DNA of 64,000 nucleotides from Collinsella sp. An307 (GTDB taxonomy: Bacteria; Actinomycetota; Coriobacteriia; Coriobacteriales; Coriobacteriaceae): the NCBI RefSeq assembly GCF_002161805.1, contig NZ_NFIP01000001.1, positions 310,001 through 374,000 of the forward strand, written 5' to 3'. The notes beneath the pieces were generated by a model. That model searched no databases, was not told the origin of the DNA, and saw only the letters and a program-made list of their open reading frames with translations. Positions 9,738 to 23,364 of this stretch are shown here, one piece after another (the first letter of the stretch is position 1; each line of letters begins with the position of its first letter). The position numbers and the translations under genes were made by a program.

Positions 9738-10394
9738 TCAAACGATGCTCTCGGGGCTTGCGGAGCTGCAACGGACGGTGAAGCGACGGGAGCTGTCCCA
9801 GGTGCAGGTGAAAAGGGTGAGCGGATAGCCGCTTTCCGTCATACCGCTTACATCGGTAGGGCCGAGCACCTCGGTCATGGCAACTTCGTATCGAAAGCTG
9901 TTGCCCAGGATATCGGTGAACACAACCAGGTCGCCTGGTTGCAGCGATGTAAGCCGCCCGAAGTGCGAGCGATAGCTGTGGCCAGCGATGACCAAGTTGC
10001 CGTCGTAGGCCGAACCGGTATAGCGTCCCGGCGAGTGGGCCAGCGCGGCGTCATCTGCGGTGGCGCCAACCGGCAGGCGGAGTCCGAGCGTGGGAAGCTC
10101 GATGATGCCCACGTATGATGTCCCATCGATTTCAAGTTCCGGTAACGGACCGGCGAGGGGAGAGGTGCTGCTGCCTCCGGCAATGGCGGCGCCAAGTGAA
10201 TCGAGCGCACGAGAGCTATCGCTGCCGGCACGTGTCTCATCCCATGCGCAATAGATGGCAAGGGCGAGCGCGGCTGCAAGTAGGATGCACCCTAGGGCTC
10301 CCGATATAAATCCGCGTCGGGCCCGGCAACGCTCATCGCGACGCTTGTCACCGCGATGAGCCCGGCTATGTTCGGTGGCTTCGTTATCGCACAC
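9738..10394 (-). CDS. sortase family transpeptidase (second sortase of pilus locus)
   Basis: 218 aa. One N-terminal membrane segment (about residues 29-50) follows a basic, cytoplasmic start rich in Arg; the catalytic domain lies outside. The catalytic His139 sits in AGHSYRSHFGRL, Cys197 in LFTCTWD, and the arginine is Arg203/204 in SSRRFTV. The HSYRSHF and TCTWD contexts differ from the class C enzyme encoded upstream, and it lacks that enzyme's C-terminal anchor. It may be the housekeeping or cell-wall-anchoring sortase of the locus, attaching finished pili or the large adhesin to peptidoglycan; this role is inferred. The gene overlaps the minor-pilin stop by 11 bp. It is the last gene of the operon; a short GC stem (GGGGC/GCCCC near 9678-9693) lies downstream. 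Confidence 0.85.
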   Translation of the reverse strand: MCDNEATEHSRAHRGDKRRDERCRARRGFISGALGCILLAAALALAIYCAWDETRAGSDSSRALDSLGAAIAGGSSTSPLAGPLPELEIDGTSYVGIIELPTLGLRLPVGATADDAALAHSPGRYTGSAYDGNLVIAGHSYRSHFGRLTSLQPGDLVVFTDILGNSFRYEVAMTEVLGPTDVSGMTESGYPLTLFTCTWDSSRRFTVRCSSASPESIV

Positions 10395-11304
10395 GGCGCC
10401 TCCGATACGCGCTTACGATAAGAAGCGCCATGCCGGCGAATGCGAGCGGAGGCACAAGGTGCCAGAGCGTGCCCGTTTGAGGAAGCCGCTTCTCGGGAGG
10501 CGTGATGTCTCCCGTGTTGATGATTGCTACCGTGCCCCCGCTCCGTTCGATGGTGACGGTGTAGCCGTCGGGCACGTTTGCCTCAACGACCTGCCAGCTG
10601 TGGCCCAGGCTCAATCCGGTCCAGGTATGCTGCCATCCTGCTGCGGCGTCAAGCTGGATCGTGTCGGCGACCTCGCCATCGCAGAGCAGCTGCACGCTGA
10701 TTTGCCTGGGGCGGTTTGCGGCACCCCCGTCATCCCAGCGCTTGACTACCGTGAGATTCGTGAGCTCGACACGCTCGAATTTCAGGTCGCAGCGCATCTC
10801 GGAGAGCTCCGTCCCGGAATCATCTACGCTGGGGAGCGCTGTAAGTATCGGCGAGAAGCGATACCGCGCGTCGTGGTAATCGAGCTCGCCGGCGCATACC
10901 AGGTATAGCCCGTGCTCGAGGTCTTCAAAGCGCAGCAGGCCGCGTGCATCGGTTGCGCCTGCTGCAAGGGCCGGCACCGCGTCTGCTGAGACATAAGCTG
11001 CGAGCGTTTGCGCTGCGGCGCCCCATCCGCTGGCATCCAGCCCATTAAGGTCAACTGGGTAATCGGCGAAGCTCCCCGTGAGCTTCCAGCTTCCAGAAGG
11101 GGAGAGCTCACCCACGCGGTAGAGGGAGATGTCGACCCCAGAAAGCGCGGCGCTCCCATCTTGGGCGCTCGCCTCGATGGCGTAACCCGAGGTACGCTCC
11201 TCTGCGAAGGCGAAGCGGGGAGCCATGCAAAGCAGCAAAGAGAGTGTAGCTAGGACGCACACCAGTCGGCGAAGATGCGTGCGCTGCGAAAGGGCTTCTA
11301 GCAT
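10384..11304 (-). CDS. minor pilin / LPQTG-anchored Cna-B protein
   Basis: 306 aa. It has an N-terminal signal peptide (cleavage likely after CMAPRFAFA), two beta-rich domains, and a C-terminal LPQTG motif followed by a hydrophobic stretch and RRRR tail, the classic sortase sorting signal. Residues about 185-265 form a Cna-B type domain (TNLTVVKRWDD, WQVVEANVPDGYTV), which usually makes an internal Lys-Asn/Asp isopeptide bond. The first domain (SGVDISLYRVGELSPSGSW, FEDLEHGLYLVCAG) resembles SpaA-type pilin subunits. It overlaps the upstream sortase by 7 bp and the downstream one by 11 bp. Likely a base or tip pilin; which of the two is not decided by sequence. Confidence 0.85.
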   Translation of the reverse strand: MLEALSQRTHLRRLVCVLATLSLLLCMAPRFAFAEERTSGYAIEASAQDGSAALSGVDISLYRVGELSPSGSWKLTGSFADYPVDLNGLDASGWGAAAQTLAAYVSADAVPALAAGATDARGLLRFEDLEHGLYLVCAGELDYHDARYRFSPILTALPSVDDSGTELSEMRCDLKFERVELTNLTVVKRWDDGGAANRPRQISVQLLCDGEVADTIQLDAAAGWQHTWTGLSLGHSWQVVEANVPDGYTVTIERSGGTVAIINTGDITPPEKRLPQTGTLWHLVPPLAFAGMALLIVSAYRRRRVR

Positions 11305-12323
11305 AGGTCATCACCTTCAAATGGGGCAGAGGATTCGGAGTCTGCGGAGGGGCTGGGATCGGCAGAAGGCACAGTATCGGAGGGGGATGGAGCCTCGGGC
11401 TCGCCGAGGCGCGCGGCTCCATCCGGAACTGCGTCGTTCTGTTGGGCGCCCCTATTTGCATGTGGCGAGGGCTCGGGTGCGGGATTGTCGCCCCCGTCTT
11501 CGTTGCGGCGCGTTCGCGTTCTCACCAACACGATAACCAGCAGGATAAGTAGGATCGGTGCGGCAATGACGGGCGCTACCTGCGCAGGATCGATTCGCGT
11601 CGCCTCGCCGGCGCCTGCGGGCACGGCATCGTTGGCGATTCGGTGCCCGCGCACCAACAGGCGGTGCGTGTTCACGCCATAGGGCGTGCAGGTGACGAGC
11701 GTCGCCAAGTCGCGCCTCTCTTCGATCTCCAGGTCGTCGAGCTCGTTGGGTTCCACGATGCGGATCTGGTCCACCTCGTAGGTGAGGGTCTCGCCCAGTA
11801 CGTGAATCAAGAAGACGTCGCCCTCGACAAGCTGGTCGATATCGCTGAACAGGCGCGCGCTCGGCAGTCCGCGGTGCCCCGAGAGGACCGTGTGGGTGGA
11901 TGCCCCGCCCACCGGCAGCGAGCTCCCCTCGATATGCCCCGCGGCCACCTGCAGAACATCGTCATCGATGCCGTGGTACACGGGAAGCATGATGTTTACC
12001 GACGGCACCTCCACGTAGCAGAGCATGCCGGTGCCCGAGACATCGAGCGTGCTCGCATAGCGGCGATGGAAGGCGTCGGTGGGGTGGTAGCGATCGTGCT
12101 GCTCCAAGAGCGCCTCGTTATAGGCGCGTGCTTCCGCGAGCATCTGGTCTCGCTCGGCGGAGCTCGCCGCGGCGACCTCATCGTCGTAGCTAGCGATGAG
12201 CTGGCTTTGATGAAAGGAGTTCCACCAGTCACTCACGCTGGGATACAGAAGCAGCAGGATCCCCACCGCGAACGCGGCGACCAACAATCCGGTCGAGACC
12301 GATATGTGCTTGCGGTTAGACAT
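11298..12323 (-). CDS. class C (pilus-polymerising) sortase
   Basis: 341 aa with an N-terminal membrane helix (about 12-28) and a C-terminal one (about 245-265), the two-anchor layout of class C sortases. The catalytic triad is visible: His150 in LSGHRGLP, Cys212 in TLVTCTPYG and Arg221 in NTHRLLVRGHR. The TLVTCTPYGVNTHRLLVRG block is diagnostic of pilus polymerases. These cleave the LPXTG of the major pilin and link it to the next subunit's lysine. After the second helix comes a long disordered cytoplasmic tail rich in Pro, Ser, Glu and Asp (about 75 residues), which is unusual. The gene follows the major pilin by 67 bp. Confidence 0.92.
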   Translation of the reverse strand: MSNRKHISVSTGLLVAAFAVGILLLLYPSVSDWWNSFHQSQLIASYDDEVAAASSAERDQMLAEARAYNEALLEQHDRYHPTDAFHRRYASTLDVSGTGMLCYVEVPSVNIMLPVYHGIDDDVLQVAAGHIEGSSLPVGGASTHTVLSGHRGLPSARLFSDIDQLVEGDVFLIHVLGETLTYEVDQIRIVEPNELDDLEIEERRDLATLVTCTPYGVNTHRLLVRGHRIANDAVPAGAGEATRIDPAQVAPVIAAPILLILLVIVLVRTRTRRNEDGGDNPAPEPSPHANRGAQQNDAVPDGAARLGEPEAPSPSDTVPSADPSPSADSESSAPFEGDDLC

Positions 12324-12390: not shown

Positions 12391-13950
12391 CTACTGCTTC
12401 TGTGCCATGCGGCGCTTCACCACGAGTGCCACGCCGGCAACTACAACGAGCGTGCCGCCCACGATATAGAGCACCGTTGTGCCCATGCCGCCCGTGGAGG
12501 GCAGGGTGGCGCCGGCTTGGTTCACCACGGTGGCGCTCAGGCTGCCATCGTCAGGGTTGGATGTGAACTCGATGGTACCTCCTTTGGTCGAAGCGCCGGT
12601 GAGGTTGGTGATCTGCGAGCCTCCATCATGTGTCGCCGTGATATCGAACTCAATGGGCGTGATGGTGTTGTAGCCTCCAGGCGTCGTGCTCTCGGACAGG
12701 CGGTAGTGTCCGTCATCGAGACCGGTGAACTCGAAGGTGGTGGAGCCGTCAGCGGTAAACGTCTTCACAGTGCGCCATTCATTGGATTCACCCTTATACA
12801 GCTTCTCAAGGGTGAAGGCAGCGCCCGCGAGCGGCTGATTGTTGCCATCGACCTTATTGATGATGGTCTTGTAGGTGAAGACCACCGCGTTGTCGGGCGT
12901 GGTCGTGCCGGTGCCGCTGCCATTGGGGTTGTTGGAGTACTCCAGGTGCGCGGTGTTGGGGTTGCCAGGTTCCCCAATCACGGCGTGCTCGTTCAACGTT
13001 GCGGAGTAGGTCGCAACGATCTTGCAGCCATCCTCGACGTTCTTTATCGTCCTGAGGTCATTGAACTTGATATGGAAGGTGCAATTGTCTTCCGGATTGG
13101 AGACAACTGTGTATTGATTGGCGCCGAGCAGAGCGCCGTCAACCGTTACGGCGACGCTGCCTGCGCCGTCGAAGTCGAGGCCGTCGCCCAGATGGTCGTG
13201 CATGATGAACTGATACGTGTCATACGAGGTAAGGTCAGTTGCGACGGTGGCGGTTAGGCGGAAGTTCACGTGGTCGCTGATGTCTTGGTCGGCGCTGGGA
13301 CCCCAGGCGGCCTCGCCGGTGGAATCGTTGACGTCCTCGACTTCCTTCTCGAGCGTGGGGACGTCGGACTTGGCCTCAACACTCACATCGCCGAGCAGCT
13401 GCAGCATGAATTTGGAGTATGCGTCGTCGTTGCCGATGACGACGTCGGTGTTATCCCTCACGAAATAATAGCCATCATCGAGGCCGCTGATGGTGTAGGT
13501 GAATGGAGCCTGAGTTCCTGTGCCAGAGGTGGAACTAGAGTGAGTGTTGGTGAGATGATTGCCGATGACGGTTGCCACTGCATCAAGATCGGCGGAGTTG
13601 TTGGCGAAGGGGTTGCTGGTAAGCACTTCGGCCACATCTGCCGCAGTTTTGCAGTCCGTGAAGAGCGCGTGCAGCGACCACCTTGTATCTTTCAACGCGA
13701 CGAGCAAATTCTCGCCTTTCACGCCAGATCCCCATTCCACATTGGAGAGCGTGGGGTCGCTCGAGTCGTCCTTCTTGTAGTAATCGCCGCTGAAGACCTG
13801 ATACGCCTCATAGGTATGTCCGGACGTATCGGCCGTGATGGTGAGCGTGTGGCTGCCAGCGGCAAAGGCCGGCGCGACCGTTGTAAGGGCCAGCACCAGG
13901 GCGCAGAACCCGGCGGCAAGCGCGCGCAGTATCCGGTTCGTGTGCTTCAT
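12391..13950 (-). CDS. major pilin, fimbrial isopeptide-forming shaft protein (LPSTG)
   Basis: 519 aa. The signal peptide ends near APAFAA at residue 31. A pilin-like linkage region occurs at VPTLEKEVEDVND, followed by a D2-type isopeptide-forming domain (YDTYQFIMHDHLGDGLDFD). A C-terminal Cna-B/SpaA domain carries the catalytic-Glu context LSESTTPGGYN. The sorting signal is LPSTGG, a hydrophobic helix and KRRMAQKQ. Length and order match shaft pilins of Gram-positive sortase-assembled pili. It lies between the giant adhesin and the class C sortase, 123 bp after the adhesin; RBS is GAAAGGAAAACG. Lys in the TLEKEV segment is the probable inter-subunit bond residue (inferred). Confidence 0.9.
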   Translation of the reverse strand: MKHTNRILRALAAGFCALVLALTTVAPAFAAGSHTLTITADTSGHTYEAYQVFSGDYYKKDDSSDPTLSNVEWGSGVKGENLLVALKDTRWSLHALFTDCKTAADVAEVLTSNPFANNSADLDAVATVIGNHLTNTHSSSTSGTGTQAPFTYTISGLDDGYYFVRDNTDVVIGNDDAYSKFMLQLLGDVSVEAKSDVPTLEKEVEDVNDSTGEAAWGPSADQDISDHVNFRLTATVATDLTSYDTYQFIMHDHLGDGLDFDGAGSVAVTVDGALLGANQYTVVSNPEDNCTFHIKFNDLRTIKNVEDGCKIVATYSATLNEHAVIGEPGNPNTAHLEYSNNPNGSGTGTTTPDNAVVFTYKTIINKVDGNNQPLAGAAFTLEKLYKGESNEWRTVKTFTADGSTTFEFTGLDDGHYRLSESTTPGGYNTITPIEFDITATHDGGSQITNLTGASTKGGTIEFTSNPDDGSLSATVVNQAGATLPSTGGMGTTVLYIVGGTLVVVAGVALVVKRRMAQKQ

Positions 13951-14073: not shown

Positions 14074-17000
14074 CTAGGGCGTTTTTCGCGCGTTGCTACC
14101 ACCGCCCTTCGGTCTTAAGCCGCGGCGGCTCACCAGGGCGATGGCGCCCACGGCAAGCACGAGGCCCGCCAGGCGAATCTGCCTCGTTCCCGAGCCGCCG
14201 GTCGATGGCAGCGTGTAATCGCGGTAATTGGGTACCTGCAGGTTCAGCTCACCGTCTTGGGCGCTGTCGCGGTACAGGATGCGTCCCGGCTCATCCGGCA
14301 GGCTATAACCATTTGGGGCCTTGACTTCCAACAGGTAGTAACGGTCGCGCGGGAGGTTCTCCCAAGTATGGGAGCCGCTGGCGCCGAGCGTCACGATGTC
14401 GGTGAGGTAGGCCGTTCGCGAGGCGCCCTCGCCGATGTCTAGGACTTCGTCGATGCCTATGTTCTGGTACTCAGGATGATTGGTGGCATTCGCTATGTCG
14501 CTCACGTAGCGTTGATCTCCCGCTTCGGGGCTATAGAGGGCGAAGACCGCACCCGCAAGCGGGCTTACGGTGCCCGCCTTCAGGTCATCGCCGTCAACCT
14601 TGGTGAGCGTCACGTCCCAGAGCCTATAGGTGTTGCGGCAAGTGATAGCAAGCTCTGTGCCCGGGCGGTAGGTAAAGCCGTAGTGCGGCGCGGGGTCGGT
14701 ATTGAAGTCGCGGTAGCTGAAACTATCGCTAGGGGTGATCTCAGTGATGGTGTATCGTGCGCCATCGGTCCAGGTCCAGCCATCGCCAAAGTCCAAGCGG
14801 CAGGGGGTGGTGCCGTTTGGGTTACTCGAGCTCTCGCCGGCGTTGACCGTAAGGGTTACTTCACGAACCTGATCGTTCGGGCGATCGGCCTCGCCGAGCG
14901 CCTTGCGCACCGCATCGACCGAGTCGAACCTCCCTTCCAGCGCGCTGCCTTCGTAGACGGCAAAGGTGAACGTGGCTTCCTCGGCGATGGCAACTGGATT
15001 GCCCTCGCCATCAACCGTTACCTTTTCAAGCGTGGGCACCGCGGGTACGCGCACGCCCACGGGGAGTGAGACCGCGGAAAGCGCTAGCGTGCTTCCGCCG
15101 GTGTTCACCTCGTAACGGTAGCCAAAGTTGTTCCAGGCAATCGTGCCGGGGTCCGCCGCGCCGTCAATGTTCGCCGTGAAGCTTACGAGCACCGTGGCGC
15201 CAGCCGGTACCACGTCGGCGGTTCCATTGCCGAGCACCACGCGGAGGGAGCGTGCACTGGCTGGAGCAGCGTTCCAGCCAGCGCCTCCCGTTTCGCCCGC
15301 CCAATCGGCGTCGGTAAAGCTTGTTGCCGCGGTGTACTCAACGCGGTAGCTGTTCGGATCAACTGTTTGCACCGTGCCATCGGGATCGCGCAGGCGTACC
15401 GATACCTGCGGATCGTCCGCGAATCGCACCTTGAAGGCACTGTTGCGGGAGGCATCCGGGTCAAAGGGACTGCCGTCGTCCGGCTCGGGCAGGTTGTCGA
15501 TCACCACGAGCTTGTTGAGGGGGCTTTCGGACTGGTTGCTTACCTCGAGCTCGTAGGTAAAGGCGCTGCCTGAGCTTCCCAGCAGGATGCTCGTGGGTGT
15601 TCCGGTGGCACTCGCCGTGTTGTCGCGGTTGTTTACCTCGGTGACGTGCTTGTTAGAGCTCGTGACGTATCCGAAGGCCACGTTGACCGCCGCCGAGTTG
15701 CGCACGCCGGAGGGGTCGCCGTTTTCATCGCGCACCATGGTGCCCTCCGACACGCTGCTAAAGGTGCAGTCGGGCTCGAAGAGCACGTCGTTGATATACG
15801 GACGCGACGAGATGGTCTCCGAGGTGTTGCGGGTGGAGTAGCTCAGTACTGCGGTGCCGCCGTTTTCGGGGATCATCATCCAGGCATAGTTATAGACGGT
15901 GGTTTGGCTGCCCTGGAGACGGATGGAAAGTGATTCCGAGCCATCCGCCGCTCGATCAAGCTTAACGGAAATTGTACCGCCACGGTCGGGAAGTACGGTC
16001 CATTCCGAGTTCCCAACCGGCACAGGCTGTCCTCCGATGTTAACGGTGGCGTCATCTGCGCTGTGGTCTGCAATGGTGAAAAGGGTGGTGCTGTTGCCCA
16101 CGGAGCTGCCGTCCGCAAGGAAGCGCTGGAGCGTCACGTCGCCTACGAAGGTGTAGGGCGCCTCCATGGTGTCCTGCACCATATAGTCAACGATCTGGGT
16201 TGGACCGTCGTTGCGAAGCGTGGTTTGCCAGTTAATGGTTGCTGCCGGTGCGGCGCTGCCCGTGTAGTCGATAGTTTCACCATTTATCGGCGTATACGAA
16301 ACTGCTCGTTTGGAAACTCCGGGGACACTGTAGGTCCGCCGAAGCGTGACGTCCGACACGAGCCAGCGCGCATGTTTTCCGCTGGGATCGGTGATCCCGT
16401 AGCGTTCTTGTACTTCTTCAGCTGAGAGCCCTAATCGGGTTCCGTCATTGTAGGTGGATCCTTCTCCGATGGGCGCGCCTGTGGCGGAGACGTTAACATC
16501 GGATGCGATTTCGCCCGTTACAATCACGCCGGTGTCCAGATAGTCCTCGTAGGGCATCGCGAGCGTGTTCTGCGAGACGTCTTCTGTTTGAGAATAGAAG
16601 CCAATCTGGCAGAAATAGCCGAAGACGATCGCCTCGTTGCGGTCAAGGTAATACTGACCGCGCACTGCGTCGTAGTGAACGGCGTAATCGCCTTCGCCGC
16701 TACCAAATGTAAAGCGCAGCGTACCGTCACCTTGCACCTCTGCCTGTACCTGCGCGCTCATGAAGTGGATGTCGCTCGTGGCCCCGCCTTCCGTATAAGC
16801 GAGGTTTACAAATGGTTCGTTACCGAACGCTGCCTGCTCGTTTGCGCCGCCGTTGGTCACGATGGTGCGAGGCCCATTCGCTCCGATCGGAGTTGAGCGC
16901 ATGTAGCCGTACGTAAAGCCTTCGGGCAGCTGATCGATAAGGTCATTCAGGTAGAGTCGCGGATTGCCGGTGTTCATGATTACTGTGTAATATTGCACCC

Positions 17001-20000
17001 AGCTCTCACGGGTGTCGCGGTTGTTGTAGACGACGCGCTCAGAGGTGGACGGGGCGTCGTCAATTCTATTTTGATTATTTTCTCTATAGAGCCCATAGAC
17101 ACCCTTCTGTAGGAAGGCGCTGCCGCTCTGCTCCAGATCATGCGTTACCGTGGAGGGCAAGCCGTACAGCCAGAGCGTGTTTTGCAACTGCTGTGTGCCA
17201 GCGGCTGCCGTATAGCGGTCCCAAACAGCATCGTCGGCAACGTTGCTAGGGAAGGTAAGGGTTACGTAGAGATAGAGCGTGCTATCGGACTCAAATGTGA
17301 TGCGCGCTTCGTCGGGCCAGACAATATAGTACTGGCCGTCTTCATGTGCCACGCCCAGCGAGGGGAAGTCTGGGGAGACAGACCAATTGTTAAGATCATC
17401 GACGCCTACTACGTTGCCCGTGCCTCCAGCGACGGCCTTTATTTTGATGTCGTCAGCTACCCATTTGAATGCGCCGAAAGTCTGGGGGAGTGCGTCGCCC
17501 AGTTGATCGCCCGTGAGCGTGAAGGGGCCGCCTGCCGCGTTTTGAAGGTCAAGTCTATAGGTGACCGCTTCGCCCGAGCCTACCGTGGAGTGGTCGACGA
17601 GGATGTCGTGGTCCGGATTACCGTCGCGTTCTCCCTCGACAATGTGCTTTTCGAATTGCAGGATGGTGCCGCCACCCCAGAGCCCCGCGAAGATGCGGTT
17701 GCCGGGCTTATCGTTCATCCAAACCATGTTTCCTACGGAATAGGAGCCGGTATCCTGGGCAAGCTGCGCGTCGACCACGGCGTGGTAGTTCAACTCAATG
17801 CGATATTCCTCGCCGGGCAGTTCGTCGAAGTACCACTCGATATGCGTATGTAGACCTTTGTAATGTTCGGTATCACCGCCGCCCTCGCCGTTGGGGAGTT
17901 CTACGTCGCCTTCGTCCTCAGCTACGGTGATGCTCGCCGCGGTTAAGAGCTTGCCGGAATCGTCGATTCCCACGCGCACGTTCTTGTAGGTGCCCGCCTT
18001 GAGCAGGTAGTAGGCCTTCCCCTCTACGGTCATCTGCTCAAGATCTTGACCCTCGAGCTGCGGGTTTTCATCTGCGGGAACCAGCAGGTATTGCGCGCCA
18101 TAGAGGTCGTCGACCATTGGAAGGTTTTCGTAGGCGCCTGTGCCGTAGTGTGTGAAGTTGAGGCGGTAGTCCAAGACATCATCGTCGTTGAGCTGCGGTG
18201 CTTCGTCCAGCAGCACTCCGTCGCGAGAAACCGATTTATCGATGACGGCTTCTCGCCGTACGGTGCGTGTAGTACCAGGTGCTCTTTTTACCTCACCGCC
18301 ATTTGGGTTGTAAACATACGCGGTGTTGGAGATTGTGCGCGGGTTCTCATTGGGATATTGGCTCGGTCGATCGTGCTCTAGCAGCTCGAACGTCGTCTTG
18401 ATGGTGGCGTGCACGGTCATCTCGAGGGAGGCTCCACCTCCGAGTGAGAAGTTGCTATCCTCGCTATTGAGCGCCCAGTCACAGGTATAGACAGCTTTCG
18501 AGGTGGGAGCGTATCCTGCGCGATAAAGCGCCTCGGCTACGCTTGATGCGATATAGCTTGCCCCTTTGGCAGTCTGCACGGTATAGCTCGCTGCTCCGTC
18601 ATTGAAGGCGGCTGTTATGGTGAGCGTGGTATCTGTGGTATCCATGCTGCTATTACGAGGGGTACGCCAAGCGGCATTTTCGGTGCCATCAATATTGGTA
18701 ACGGCTTCCCACGTACCCAGTTGTGCATGCTTAATGGTTATGGTGAGCTTGGTGCCTGCTGGAGCTTCAGCAAACATCCGCTCCATATTCTGAGGCGTGA
18801 TGTAGAGGTCGGTGCTTAGAGGATCGCTCACCCGATACACGCCTTCCATAGGCGAAGTTGGGTACGAGCTTGTTCCTGTGTTGGTGAGCGTAAGTGGGTA
18901 GTCGATGTCTTCGCCAAAGTAGGTAGGTTCGCTTGAACCCTTGGTAAAGGTGAGGTTGGCAGTTGCTTCTGAGAGCGTTATCTGCGCTATTGCGGGCTTG
19001 GGCTCATCGTCAACGCTGTGCGTGTAATGGACGGTTGCGCGAATTTCATTGATGACTTGATGCTTATCCTGTGCCGCATGAAACGCGTTAAGGTCAATTT
19101 CGAAGGCCTCGGGTTTTAAGTAAATTGATACATTGGGAGGAGCTGCCTCTTGGTTTCGGTTCCCGTTCACGTAGCGCCAGCTAAGTTCAAGCCCTTGCTC
19201 TTCTTCATTCCATGTGACGTTGCGTCCGGAAATGCCGGTTGCTGAAAGTTGCGCAATAAGGATATCGCCAGCATAGATGTTACTTCCCTGGACACGGATA
19301 GTCCCTTGCTTTACCGCTTCCACCACATCGGGTGCCCAGATAACGCCTTGAGGTAGATGGAGGGTGTCGACGAAGTCGATGGACCTGGCAAAGTCCTTGC
19401 CGTAGGACGAGCTGTTCGTGTCGTCGCGCGGCAGGCTTACATCCCATCTCATGTCTTGGGAGAGAGCGGCACCTCCTTCGCCGTCGCCCCATATACGGGG
19501 GCCATTAGTTCCTGTTTTCCTAAGGCTGAAGCTATCGGGCTGGGTTGTCCAGTAAGCCTGGATCATATCGTCGCTGGTGGGCTCGATGAGCTCACCTTGT
19601 TCGCTTCCTTCCGATGTGGGCTTCACGCCCGCAACGCCCCAGATGGTGATGCCGCCTCCGCTCGAAGTGGGCGAGGGATAGAGCGCCGTCATGGGAATTG
19701 AGATCGTAGAACCTGTGTGTGGCGCGAACTCAAGGTAAACGGTGTAAGGGTCGTCGGTGGCAAAGACGCTGGCGGAAGCTACGGTCGAGCCGTTGCTGTC
19801 CGTTATGTCGAAGTGACTGCCCGGAGTGATGCTCAGGGTGGCATCCTCGCCTGCTAGGCGTAGATATACGCGGTAGCGGGCGTCATTTGTGCCCGTGGTA
19901 TTCTGAAGGCTAGCGGTAATGTTGAGGGTATCGCCCGTGAGAAGGCGGTAACCACCGCCGCTGCCGCCTTCGGACGATTGCCACTGTATGGTGTCGCCCT

Positions 20001-22218
20001 CCGAGCTCAGCCTGATATCCATGCTGTCCACGTCATCGCCGGTGACGGTGAGGTTTTCCTTGCCATGCATGTTTGAAGCAAAGCCGCCGCTTCCGCTGGC
20101 GCCTTCAAGCCCCGTATTGTAGAACGGGTTGGTGCCTACGGATGTTGCTTCGGTGAAGGACGCGAGTGCCTCCTCAACGGTGGTTGCACCGTTCACCTTA
20201 TTCAGTGACGGACAATTGGCAAAGGCGTAGTGCGAGATGCTTTCGATTTTTTCTGGCTCTTCGAACGTGACGCTTTTTAGTCGCTCGGCATGCTTGGCCA
20301 CGCCTTGGGCGACGCCGGTAACGGTGCAGGTAACGCCGTCTTCGGGCGAGAAGGCGGCCGGGATGGCCGCATCTACCACGTTGTTGGGGATATTGACGAG
20401 GGTTGCTGTGCCCGTTTTGGCGTCGTAGCTATACAGGATGCCTTGGTCGTCAACGTAGATGGTGCCCTCAAGCGAGGCAAGGGGCTCTTCCGCGCTTGCG
20501 AAGGCACCTGCCTCGACGGTAATTTGATTGTTCGGTTCGAAATAGATGGAATGCTGGAACTTCACGATGGCATCGAAGTTAGCCGGGAGCACGTCCACAT
20601 CCTCACCAATAACGAGATCGAACGTGGGCTGTGTGTCCCTGAATACAAAGCCGGACCCAATCGTGGAGTTACTCGCGTTGTACCTAAGGGTCACCAGGGA
20701 GGGGAAGAGGCCTGTATCCGCAAAGAAGGGATCGTTCATACTGACGGTGCCGCGAGGGATGTCCAAGCTGGTCAGTGATGTGTTGCCGGAAAACGGGCCC
20801 TTATCGAAGCGCAGGGGTACGTCTTCGGGAAATCTGATGGTCCGCAGCGAGCTGGCTCCGTAAAACACCATATTGAGGTCCCCGCCATCGATGCTCACTC
20901 CGTCAGCGATATAAACTTCTTCAACGCTGCTGTCTCGAAACACATCATAGGTCATAGTTTTAACTGTCGAAGGGATGGTTACACGCTTGAGATATCGCGT
21001 ATTTTTTAATGCTGACTGGGCGACCTTGCGCACGCTCTCGGGAGGCGTGTAGCTGTCTCCAGCATGGAAGTTCGGATAGTCGATGAGCGTAGAGCCATCT
21101 TTGGAATAGAGGACTCCGTCGATATCGCACAGTACGGGGTTGTCGGGATCAACTTCGAAGGAGTACACGGTGTAAAATGGCTGGGCTCCAAAGTTTACAA
21201 GGGAGGCGGGTATGTTGACCACGCCTTCCTCCGCGGTTTTTGAATCGATGCCTGCATCATTGAACACTTGCTGCCCAAGTGTCTCGACACCCTCCATGAA
21301 GGTGATTTTCCCTAAATGCGACAGCTCAAAAGCATTTCTCTTTAAGGTTTTGACATTACCGGGGATTATCAACTCGCGCTCGGTGAGGGTGATTCTGCTG
21401 AACGCATAGGTACCGATTTCGGACACGGTCGTTCCAAAATCTATGGAAGTGAAGCAGCCGTTATGGAACGCGTTGTTACCAATGCGCGTAATGCCATCCT
21501 CAATTACGAGCTTAATGGGGGAACTGCTGTTAGTGATATATGAGTAATACGGGGGCTGAACACTTAGATTCGCAAGGTTGGGAATCTCTCCCTCGCCTGC
21601 AATAATGAGCGTGCGGTCGCCGGCGTCGTTCTCGGTTACTTCCCAAGTGAGGTTGGAATCGGGGATATCGCCGCCGTCGATATGTGTGTCATCCACTCCG
21701 GCGCGTGCGGCGGTGCTTTCCTCGGTCGCGGCATCGCTTGTCTCGGTTTCGGCGGTGGGCTGCTTCGCTGCGGCATCAGAAGGCTCACTTTGGGTTGAGG
21801 GGTTGGTCGCCGCGTTATTCTCGGTGCCGTCCGATGCATCTTCCGGAGTCTGATCGCCTTGCGTTGCGCCGCCAGAGGGGTTTCCGTTGGATTCCGGATT
21901 GGTCTGCTCCTTGTTTCCAGTTCCATCAACAGGGGTGTCACCGGCGTCGGTTTCCGGCGTCTCGTCTTCTGTATCACCCGTTGATGTCGCCTCGCCGTCT
22001 GTGCCCTCCGTTGCGGAAGCCTCGCTATCCGCAACCTGCTCGAAGCCGGTCACGTTTACAAGGTCATCCTGCTCGGCTGCGGTGGCGGGCAGCTCGAGTG
22101 CCGCAGAGGTGGCAAGGGCAACCGCCATGCACATGACGGAAAGCGCGACTACCCGGCCCGAGCGGATTAGGCGGTGGCGCAAGGATGTGAGGTGTTCGCG
22201 AATGCGCGGGTGCTGCAT
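14074..22218 (-). CDS. giant LRR/Cna-type LPSTG-anchored surface adhesin
   Basis: 2714 aa. The start is ATG 22218, with GAAAGGAAC just upstream; the frame opens 31 codons earlier but would overlap lepB. The order is: signal peptide ending near LPATAA; a Thr/Glu/Ser/Asp-rich stalk (about 50-165); a BspA/LRR_5-type leucine-rich region (about 195-700, repeats such as ITRIGNNAFHNG and VETLGQQVFND); then many beta-sandwich, DUF11- or isopeptide-like domains. Two Cna-B/SpaA-like domains follow near the end (LTKVDGDDLKAG, YLLEVKAPNGYSLP). The C-terminus is LPSTGG, a helix and an Arg-rich tail. It probably acts as the tip adhesin of the pilus or a cell-wall fibre. Codon and base use look less GC-rich than flanking housekeeping genes, suggesting acquisition. 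Ligand unknown. Confidence 0.9.
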   Translation of the reverse strand: MQHPRIREHLTSLRHRLIRSGRVVALSVMCMAVALATSAALELPATAAEQDDLVNVTGFEQVADSEASATEGTDGEATSTGDTEDETPETDAGDTPVDGTGNKEQTNPESNGNPSGGATQGDQTPEDASDGTENNAATNPSTQSEPSDAAAKQPTAETETSDAATEESTAARAGVDDTHIDGGDIPDSNLTWEVTENDAGDRTLIIAGEGEIPNLANLSVQPPYYSYITNSSSPIKLVIEDGITRIGNNAFHNGCFTSIDFGTTVSEIGTYAFSRITLTERELIIPGNVKTLKRNAFELSHLGKITFMEGVETLGQQVFNDAGIDSKTAEEGVVNIPASLVNFGAQPFYTVYSFEVDPDNPVLCDIDGVLYSKDGSTLIDYPNFHAGDSYTPPESVRKVAQSALKNTRYLKRVTIPSTVKTMTYDVFRDSSVEEVYIADGVSIDGGDLNMVFYGASSLRTIRFPEDVPLRFDKGPFSGNTSLTSLDIPRGTVSMNDPFFADTGLFPSLVTLRYNASNSTIGSGFVFRDTQPTFDLVIGEDVDVLPANFDAIVKFQHSIYFEPNNQITVEAGAFASAEEPLASLEGTIYVDDQGILYSYDAKTGTATLVNIPNNVVDAAIPAAFSPEDGVTCTVTGVAQGVAKHAERLKSVTFEEPEKIESISHYAFANCPSLNKVNGATTVEEALASFTEATSVGTNPFYNTGLEGASGSGGFASNMHGKENLTVTGDDVDSMDIRLSSEGDTIQWQSSEGGSGGGYRLLTGDTLNITASLQNTTGTNDARYRVYLRLAGEDATLSITPGSHFDITDSNGSTVASASVFATDDPYTVYLEFAPHTGSTISIPMTALYPSPTSSGGGITIWGVAGVKPTSEGSEQGELIEPTSDDMIQAYWTTQPDSFSLRKTGTNGPRIWGDGEGGAALSQDMRWDVSLPRDDTNSSSYGKDFARSIDFVDTLHLPQGVIWAPDVVEAVKQGTIRVQGSNIYAGDILIAQLSATGISGRNVTWNEEEQGLELSWRYVNGNRNQEAAPPNVSIYLKPEAFEIDLNAFHAAQDKHQVINEIRATVHYTHSVDDEPKPAIAQITLSEATANLTFTKGSSEPTYFGEDIDYPLTLTNTGTSSYPTSPMEGVYRVSDPLSTDLYITPQNMERMFAEAPAGTKLTITIKHAQLGTWEAVTNIDGTENAAWRTPRNSSMDTTDTTLTITAAFNDGAASYTVQTAKGASYIASSVAEALYRAGYAPTSKAVYTCDWALNSEDSNFSLGGGASLEMTVHATIKTTFELLEHDRPSQYPNENPRTISNTAYVYNPNGGEVKRAPGTTRTVRREAVIDKSVSRDGVLLDEAPQLNDDDVLDYRLNFTHYGTGAYENLPMVDDLYGAQYLLVPADENPQLEGQDLEQMTVEGKAYYLLKAGTYKNVRVGIDDSGKLLTAASITVAEDEGDVELPNGEGGGDTEHYKGLHTHIEWYFDELPGEEYRIELNYHAVVDAQLAQDTGSYSVGNMVWMNDKPGNRIFAGLWGGGTILQFEKHIVEGERDGNPDHDILVDHSTVGSGEAVTYRLDLQNAAGGPFTLTGDQLGDALPQTFGAFKWVADDIKIKAVAGGTGNVVGVDDLNNWSVSPDFPSLGVAHEDGQYYIVWPDEARITFESDSTLYLYVTLTFPSNVADDAVWDRYTAAAGTQQLQNTLWLYGLPSTVTHDLEQSGSAFLQKGVYGLYRENNQNRIDDAPSTSERVVYNNRDTRESWVQYYTVIMNTGNPRLYLNDLIDQLPEGFTYGYMRSTPIGANGPRTIVTNGGANEQAAFGNEPFVNLAYTEGGATSDIHFMSAQVQAEVQGDGTLRFTFGSGEGDYAVHYDAVRGQYYLDRNEAIVFGYFCQIGFYSQTEDVSQNTLAMPYEDYLDTGVIVTGEIASDVNVSATGAPIGEGSTYNDGTRLGLSAEEVQERYGITDPSGKHARWLVSDVTLRRTYSVPGVSKRAVSYTPINGETIDYTGSAAPAATINWQTTLRNDGPTQIVDYMVQDTMEAPYTFVGDVTLQRFLADGSSVGNSTTLFTIADHSADDATVNIGGQPVPVGNSEWTVLPDRGGTISVKLDRAADGSESLSIRLQGSQTTVYNYAWMMIPENGGTAVLSYSTRNTSETISSRPYINDVLFEPDCTFSSVSEGTMVRDENGDPSGVRNSAAVNVAFGYVTSSNKHVTEVNNRDNTASATGTPTSILLGSSGSAFTYELEVSNQSESPLNKLVVIDNLPEPDDGSPFDPDASRNSAFKVRFADDPQVSVRLRDPDGTVQTVDPNSYRVEYTAATSFTDADWAGETGGAGWNAAPASARSLRVVLGNGTADVVPAGATVLVSFTANIDGAADPGTIAWNNFGYRYEVNTGGSTLALSAVSLPVGVRVPAVPTLEKVTVDGEGNPVAIAEEATFTFAVYEGSALEGRFDSVDAVRKALGEADRPNDQVREVTLTVNAGESSSNPNGTTPCRLDFGDGWTWTDGARYTITEITPSDSFSYRDFNTDPAPHYGFTYRPGTELAITCRNTYRLWDVTLTKVDGDDLKAGTVSPLAGAVFALYSPEAGDQRYVSDIANATNHPEYQNIGIDEVLDIGEGASRTAYLTDIVTLGASGSHTWENLPRDRYYLLEVKAPNGYSLPDEPGRILYRDSAQDGELNLQVPNYRDYTLPSTGGSGTRQIRLAGLVLAVGAIALVSRRGLRPKGGGSNARKTP

Positions 22219-22235
22219 GCTGTTCCTTTCGCTCG

Positions 22236-23060
22236 CTAAACGATGCTGACGGTGTTCAGCGGCCACACACGGAAGCTGACCACGCCGATAACCTGGTCGA
22301 GGTCGATGCATCCGATGGCGCGCGTCCGGCTGTCAAGGGACGTGGCCCGGTCGTCTCCCATCACGAAGATGCGGCCTTCGGGCACTTGATAGGGAAGCGG
22401 GATGTCGCAGGTGCCTCGACTCGATTGCGCAAGGTAGGGCTCGTCAAGGAGCTGCCCGTTGACGGAGACGTTGCCCCGCTGGTCGATATCCACCCAGTCG
22501 CCCGCGCGTGCGATGACGCGTTTGACCAAGATGCTGTTGTTCAGATAGAACGCCACCACATCGCCGGTATCTGGCTGGGCGGGGCGCAGCGTCACGACTA
22601 ACTGGCCGTCGGAAAGCGTGGGCTCCATGGAGGAGCCATCGATGCGCATTACCGGCGCGATATACATGGCGATGAGCGAGGCCGCTGCCGCGACACACAG
22701 AAGAACGCCTACCGTGCTGGCAACCGTCTGCCGCAGGCGCCGCCGATGCTCTCTTCGCTGTTGGAGCTGCGCTTCGGAAGCAGGGTCATGGGGTTGTTGA
22801 TCAGGCTGATGGACGCTACCAGAGTTGTCTTCTTCGACGACCGATGTATCTACGCGAGGCGCTTCAGAGTTTTCCTGCGCGTTTGCAGACTCAGCCCGGG
22901 ATGTTGAGCAGAATTCTGATTCAGATAACTGATGGGGGGGGGTCATAGAATTAGCGGTTGAGGGCGCATCTTCCATCGGAGCAGGACGGGAGATCTTTTC
23001 GGACGAGTTCGTGGGTGCTTTTGCTGCTGAACCTGATTCGATTACCACGTACTCAGCCAT
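22236..23060 (-). CDS. lepB: signal peptidase I with long disordered N-terminal extension
   Basis: 274 aa. The start chosen is ATG 23060, preceded by GGAGGAGGGAGTG. Residues 1-105 are hydrophilic and low-complexity, followed by one membrane helix (about 112-134). The catalytic Ser144 is in GSSMEPTL, the catalytic Lys180 is in ILVKRVIARAGD, and the GDDRATSLDSR box is present. The core is complete. It is the first gene of the pilus operon, 17 bp before the giant adhesin, so it probably processes the locus' own secreted subunits, as dedicated signal peptidases do in other pilus islands. The extension contains a nine-base poly-C tract at codons 40-43 that could cause slippage. Enzyme identity is sure; the dedicated role is inferred. 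Confidence 0.92.
   Translation of the reverse strand: MAEYVVIESGSAAKAPTNSSEKISRPAPMEDAPSTANSMTPPHQLSESEFCSTSRAESANAQENSEAPRVDTSVVEEDNSGSVHQPDQQPHDPASEAQLQQRREHRRRLRQTVASTVGVLLCVAAAASLIAMYIAPVMRIDGSSMEPTLSDGQLVVTLRPAQPDTGDVVAFYLNNSILVKRVIARAGDWVDIDQRGNVSVNGQLLDEPYLAQSSRGTCDIPLPYQVPEGRIFVMGDDRATSLDSRTRAIGCIDLDQVIGVVSFRVWPLNTVSIV
22934..22942 (-). repeat. poly-C tract (C9) inside lepB coding sequence
   Basis: Nine consecutive G on the plus strand, hence C9 in the lepB message, encode part of Thr40-Pro41-Pro42-His43. Loss of one C would shift the frame to a TAG after about 27 codons. Gain of one C reaches TGA within five codons of the tract. Both truncate the protein before its membrane helix and catalytic domain. 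Tracts of this kind in early coding sequence are classic sites of slipped-strand phase variation. It stands out from the rest of the window, where such long G/C runs were not seen. Confidence 0.85.
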
Positions 23061-23364
23061 ATCACTCCCTCCTCCCAACCGACTATTCTAGAACAAAATG
23101 CGGTTCTCTCCCCAACATTTTATAATAGTGATTCGGGGAGGGGGTGGGCGTCTTGCTTTTGGAAAGATGCAGCGCGTCTTGGTAGCAGTGATGGCGGTTC
23201 CGCCCGATTGCGCGGGGTGGGCAAACACGACGCGCCCTGCCTTTGCCGGGGTGAACTATGGGGAATTCTGACAACGTCGCTTGCTCGCCTCCTTAGGCAC
23301 GGCTTGCTTCGCTGCCTGTGCTATCCTCTTGCAATACGTGAACAACGAGCATAGAGGTGCTGAA
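23061..23364. other. divergent intergenic region between pilus locus and valS
   Basis: This 304-bp gap separates the divergently read lepB and valS. It contains an AT-rich island (23113-23130) with TATAAT on the plus strand and TATTAT/TATAAA on the minus strand. A G-rich block (GGGGAGGGGGTGGG, 23135-23148) and several GC-rich imperfect stems follow. The promoters for both transcripts must lie here, but I could not assign a convincing -35/-10 pair. I looked for a T-box leader before valS and found no TGGNACCGCG-like antiterminator bulge, so I do not claim one. Confidence 0.5.

Follow-up and report, generated by a model that had tools for sequence, protein, structure and literature searches.

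Switching of sortase-dependent pilus operons by G-tracts was reported for Bifidobacterium breve UCC2003 at bbr_0113 and bbr_1889 (Penno et al. 2022, PMC9187656). There, the tracts sit in the first gene of the two operons and vary within cultures: at one locus, 59% of the population had G12, 37% G11 and 3% G10, and at the other a one-base loss was found in 6.5%. In-frame strains were piliated, and passage through mice enriched the ON length (PMC9187656). SipA of Streptococcus pyogenes, a signal-peptidase-like protein without catalytic residues, is essential for pilus polymerisation, and no homopolymer switch is described for it in the same work (PMC4049620). Neisseria and Campylobacter have phase-variable surface genes with poly-G or poly-C tracts (PMC5084427, PMC4965091). 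Here we analyse a C9 homopolymer in a lepB-type gene, predicted to encode a dedicated signal peptidase, which is the first gene of a sortase-dependent pilus operon in a 64-kb stretch of DNA (G000:C1:310001-374000, 61% G+C, hereafter the window) from a 2.2-Mb genome of 17 contigs and 99.5% completeness. Judging from the sequence, we consider it probable that this tract is a replication-slippage ON/OFF switch of the pilus operon. Our literature search, for which most subscription journals lay outside reach, returned no report of homopolymer switching in Coriobacteria or in any pilus signal peptidase. To our knowledge, no pilus-specific signal peptidase carrying such a tract has been described.

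The tract, the gene and the elements concerned by a change of frame are located as follows:

22934..22942, minus strand: C9 homopolymer on the coding strand (G9 on the plus strand), proposed slippage switch, codons 40-43 of the lepB-type gene
22236..23060, minus strand: pilus-type signal peptidase I gene (lepB-type, 274 residues), operon gene 1 (Peptidase_S26 5.7e-32; TIGR02227 2e-34)
23065..23076, minus strand: Shine-Dalgarno-like GGGAGGAGGGAG ahead of the ATG at 23060, found by sequence
22785..23060, minus strand: predicted disordered extension holding the tract, codons 1-92 (AlphaFold2: no secondary structure, low predicted local distance difference test score, pLDDT)
22659..22784, minus strand: long helix including the membrane anchor, codons 93-134 (AlphaFold2 model)
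22629..22631, minus strand: codon of catalytic Ser144, invariant in alignments
22521..22523, minus strand: codon of catalytic Lys180, invariant in alignments
22850..22852, minus strand: TAG met upon loss of one C (C8), position read from the sequence
22921..22923, minus strand: TGA met upon gain of one C (C10), position read from the sequence

The open reading frame of 274 codons runs from the ATG at 23060 to a TAG ending at 22236, and the tract begins at offset 118 from this ATG. Both the coordinates and the codon numbers given for the tract in an earlier note on this DNA proved exact on recount. Besides the C9, the window contains no G/C run of at least 7 and no A/T run of at least 8. By its sequence, LepB belongs to the S26 signal peptidases I: an N-terminal membrane helix is followed by the Ser/Lys dyad, and the enzyme is predicted to be catalytically intact; Ser144 and Lys180, correctly named in the earlier note, are unchanged across 25 aligned sequences. 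Since the AlphaFold2 model (mean pLDDT 66) gives residues 1-92 no structure and low confidence, ahead of a helix at residues 93-134, the C9 tract is probably located within a disordered N-terminal extension, in agreement with the disordered segment that had been postulated around it.

Tract lengths other than nine had marked consequences for the reading frame. With one C lost (C8), translation meets a TAG 27 codons past the tract, giving a product of 69 residues; with one C gained (C10), a TGA follows after 4 codons and the product has 46 residues. These values match the previously claimed stops after about 27 and within about five codons. C6 and C12 preserve the frame. For C7, C8, C10 and C11, no ATG, GTG or TTG was found in the catalytic frame 3' of the tract; all start codons of this frame lie 5' of it, and these lengths lose the membrane helix together with Ser144 and Lys180. 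The loss of anchor and catalytic residues claimed for both one-base shifts therefore holds. Because no restart codon is left, a one-base change of length should abolish LepB cleanly. A translational start inside the window gene, 3' of the tract, which the earlier note had named as a refutation of its proposal, is excluded for ATG, GTG and TTG.

The switch would work as follows. At C9 (or C6, C12), the frame would stay open through the linker, which is probably disordered and tolerant of length changes, and on through the membrane helix to the Ser/Lys domain; this would be the ON state. After gain or loss of one C, translation would stop 4 or 27 codons on, and the enzyme would be absent (OFF), since beyond the tract the catalytic frame offers no start codon. 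Slippage would occur within the population and, by analogy with B. breve, indels in the C9 would switch LepB and, via polarity or pilin processing, the pilus.

Related genomes were compared at one genome per species, and the contrast of ON and OFF lengths is therefore one between species. Among 399 genomes searched in the order, 54, including that of the window, carry a pilus-type lepB; eight other genomes of the genus have the housekeeping type only, and a renewed search of the 140 genomes of the family of G168 with the G168 protein added no further genome. In the tree, the window gene clusters with those of G064, G167 and G168 (support 90/83), on a long branch and with a placement that is less sure. 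G167 and G168 belong to another family, Atopobiaceae, and G064, which we take to be Enorma phocaeensis An718, to the same family as the window. A tract of C9 to C10 was found at the same linker in three of these four genes. In G168 it is a C9 in frame (ON), with an ATG 154 bases upstream. In G167 it is a C10 (OFF): the GTG-started N-terminus leaves the frame and stops soon after the tract, and the catalytic part lies in another frame. Between these two genomes the catalytic codons differ by 59 synonymous versus 14 nonsynonymous changes, and the N-terminal parts, read in their own frame, share 21 of 36 residues. Since it is conserved on both sides of the tract, each in its own frame, lepB of G167 gives the impression of being intact, with its tract at an OFF length. 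TTG codons are present 3' of the G167 tract, without a convincing Shine-Dalgarno sequence, and may permit a weak restart. At species level, the comparison of tract lengths in related genomes, which the earlier note had asked for, supports the candidate phase-variation switch put forward there, with C9 ON in G168 versus C10 OFF in G167 at the same site of a conserved gene.

Two other explanations of this contrast have to be weighed. It would be technical if tract lengths had been assembled or sequenced wrongly. G167 and G168 are draft assemblies, G168 being the metagenome-assembled genome of an uncultured Atopobiaceae bacterium, and draft tracts can be off by a base; published lengths can be wrong as well, the annotated G11 of B. 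breve making up only 37% of the population (PMC9187656). However, one miscalled base would not undo the finding that several genomes share a tract of roughly this length at one site, the lengths in the window and in G168 are exactly in frame, and a further OFF length, in G118 (see below), comes from a single-contig assembly. We judge such an error very improbable. Even less credit is given to the idea that RNA polymerase or the ribosome slips at the tract in a programmed way, which would supply a fixed fraction of full-length product instead of a heritable switch in DNA. A homopolymer in a coding frame can make either machinery slip, and slippage could express the out-of-frame G167 gene with its conserved catalytic domain. 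Most sites of transcriptional slippage described in bacteria, though, are runs of A or T, and the window gene is already in frame. The length changes in B. breve, moreover, were measured in DNA (PMC9187656). Heritable switching by replication slippage is retained as the preferred reading.

Tracts near the head of pilus operons were also found elsewhere in the order. With the zone near lepB taken to span the 1000 bases ahead of the aligned lepB start and the 1100 bases that follow it, and G/C runs of at least 8 counted as tracts, 9 tracts were found in 122 kb near pilus-type lepB versus 5 in 677 kb of the remaining pilus regions, which is about ten times denser, and none in 112 kb around housekeeping lepB. 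Fisher's test gave P = 4e-5 for this enrichment, or 7e-4 with two sister pairs counted once, deeper relatedness being uncorrected in both. A leader gene ahead of lepB carries a G9 in G182 and a G10 in G184, at the same site, with differing lengths and C-termini. In G118, the leader gene has a G9 close to its start that sets it OFF, and G10 would be ON. In G110 (L103, +728 from the lepB match), a G8 lies in the signal peptide of an LPSTG pilin and sets it OFF; at G9, an ATG with a Shine-Dalgarno sequence reads through. Non-coding tracts are a G10 5' of the leader gene in G072 and a G8 5' of a pilin in G130. The tracts of L133, L142, L154 and L165, which entered the count for the pilus regions but lie far from pilus genes or are intergenic, were not used as evidence of switching. 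Pilus-type signal peptidases of Firmicutes, to which most matches of a wider contig scan belonged, showed no enrichment of G/C tracts; the feature is thus not shared by pilus signal peptidases at large. We give about even chances to the broader proposal that Coriobacteriales pilus operons repeatedly gained a G/C slippage tract near the operon head and that, in one lineage, the tract came to lie within the operon's own signal peptidase, so that the frame of one enzyme would switch the entire pilus line, its export and its assembly alike, and not one subunit.

Some side observations concern the same operons. The leader gene before lepB (L101, L105, L108, L112), present in many Coriobacteriales pilus operons, encodes a predicted helical LSKLxRxQLLxLL motif, frequently bears the G-tract and has no Pfam family that we could find. 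The LepB N-termini of G167 and G168 contain a LxKxELLExL motif similar to it. At L243, from a Clostridia metagenome-assembled genome, an A10 run precedes the lepB match by 135 bases; it falls within the N-terminal portion of a signal peptidase of pilus type, with no clear reading frame 5' of it.

In the genome as a whole, C/G 6-, 7- and 8-mers number 215, 55 and 27. Runs of length 6, 7, 8, 9 and 10 occur 132, 16, 2, 4 and 5 times, plus one 9-run at a contig end that duplicates a 10-run locus. If the eightfold decay from 6 to 7 is extrapolated, about 0.27 runs of at least 9 are expected, versus 9 observed; the long G/C tracts therefore form a class of their own, beyond chance. They occupy 11 distinct loci, most of them intergenic or just 5' of genes. 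Three, judged from open frames, are within coding sequence: the pilus lepB, a C5 DNA methyltransferase and an IS21-like transposase, the last named by reading the protein. MutS domain I (PF01624) was not found in any of the 8 genomes tested, and 11 of 14 control genomes match it; slipped bases may evade mismatch repair because of this absence.

These genome-wide data bear on a third explanation, that the C run arose incidentally in a harmless disordered linker and has no selected switching role. The roughly 11 long-tract loci, mostly non-coding, would fit it, as would a lengthening of tracts through mutation alone where MutS is lacking, and the absence of the tract from G064. Against it, the tract is retained in three of the four clade members despite a diverged linker. 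At background density, a tract in about 400 bp of two of the three other orthologs has a chance of about 1e-5 to 6e-5, by a simple estimate that ignores the shared ancestry of G167 and G168. The enrichment at pilus lepB across the order argues in the same direction. Nor is the C run harmless, because a single slip destroys LepB. An incidental origin thus appears unlikely to us, and a switch remains the favoured interpretation of the lepB tract.

Other long tracts of the genome deserve mention in their own right. A G10 at G000:C1:37930-37939 (L005 1499-1508) lies inside the C5-cytosine DNA methyltransferase gene (PF00145, 1.6e-54); G10 gives the full-length C-terminus, and G8, G9, G11 and G12 alter or cut the last ~65 residues. 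This gene is a second candidate for phase variation in the genome. A G10 at G000:C12:63238-63247 (L020 1499-1508) lies in the ribosome-binding region of a response-regulator-like gene, only a few bases 5' of its ATG, and a change of tract length there could tune translation. Another G10, at G000:C1:186611-186620 (L008 1499-1508), is situated either directly ahead of a sugar-transferase-like gene or close to its start. Identical sequence, beginning in a C10/C9 run, is found at the end of contig C17 (G000:C17:128157-128266) and at the start of C16 (G000:C16:1-100), and the two contigs probably adjoin there.

Downstream of lepB, which is divergent from valS, the operon continues with a giant LPSTG adhesin, an LPSTG pilin, a class C sortase, an LPQTG subunit and a second sortase:

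22219..22235, minus strand: lepB-adhesin gap of 17 bp with the adhesin's own Shine-Dalgarno AAAGGA, found by sequence
14074..22218, minus strand: giant LPSTG-anchored adhesin, 2714 residues, with BspA-type leucine-rich repeat, SpaA and DUF11 domains (profile matches)
12391..13950, minus strand: LPSTG major pilin, isopeptide D2 backbone (profile matches)
11298..12323, minus strand: class C (pilus) sortase (NF033745 2.5e-79)
10384..11304, minus strand: LPQTG-anchored Cna_B subunit (profile matches)
9738..10394, minus strand: second sortase (PF04203 3.2e-18)

The spacing of 17 bp to the next gene is as claimed beforehand. A scan of the region for promoters and terminators found nothing. Since Rho is present in the genome, an early stop codon in lepB could end transcription ahead of the adhesin. 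Rho-dependent polarity would then extend over the adhesin, pilin and sortase genes, and OFF cells would lose assembled pili.

Several observations weigh against a switch. The evidence for length differences is between species and not within one strain or species. Nine bases are few for such a tract: of the B. breve tracts, G11 varied strongly and G10 much less (PMC9187656). The closest ortholog from the same family, in G064, has no tract; the site reads Thr-Pro-Pro-Leu-Pro with an interrupted C run, and represents either a broken-up tract or the state preceding its origin. The adhesin has its own ribosome site (AAAGGA), which makes polarity uncertain. Finally, the genome encodes a second signal peptidase, of housekeeping type, that might process the pilins without the pilus LepB; the silencing of all secreted subunits at once, as put forward in the earlier note, is for this reason only a possible outcome of LepB loss.

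If the proposal is true, stochastic switching of pili by homopolymer slippage recurs in Coriobacteriales, where no MutS was detected, and is not peculiar to Bifidobacterium; the switch can reside in a processing enzyme rather than in a displayed subunit; and surveys based on single genomes would misjudge the piliation of such commensals, one base being decisive. Test cases are at hand in the pairs G167/G168 and G182/G184 and in the pilin allele of G110. Homopolymer phase variation of sortase pili is known. What appears to be new, as far as genome sequences tell, is the target, a dedicated and predicted catalytically intact signal peptidase, the order Coriobacteriales and the recurrence at different genes.

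The locus may finally be set beside the known systems. With the poly-G and poly-C genes of Neisseria and Campylobacter it would have in common that a surface-related gene is frameshifted at a C/G homopolymer, about 7-11 bases long, whereas these bacteria are Gram-negative and the surface structures are others. With SipA it shares the S26 fold (LepB matched the sequence of the structure PDB 4n31 at 4.8e-14) and a gene within a sortase-pilus cluster; unlike SipA, LepB has both catalytic residues and a predicted disordered N-terminal extension of ~92 residues. The type of a non-catalytic pilus chaperone, as in SipA, does not fit LepB, Ser144 and Lys180 both being present and invariant. The closest likeness is to B. 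breve, also a high-G+C gut actinomycete with a G/C homopolymer of ~9-12 in the first gene of a sortase pilus operon, where the wrong length leads to an early stop with presumed polar effects on the pilin and sortase genes that follow. In B. breve, however, this first gene encodes an LPXTG pilin with the tract between signal peptide and the rest, whereas here it encodes a signal peptidase; and measurements there covered the variation in length, the piliation and the selection in mice, whereas here a probable switch is put forward from comparison between genomes. The Bifidobacterium-type layout, a tract splitting the Sec signal from the LPXTG part of a pilin, does not occur in the window and was found in G110 (L103). 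Because its tract lies in the signal peptidase and not in a pilin, the window locus is a variant, not a member, of the Bifidobacterium-type switch.
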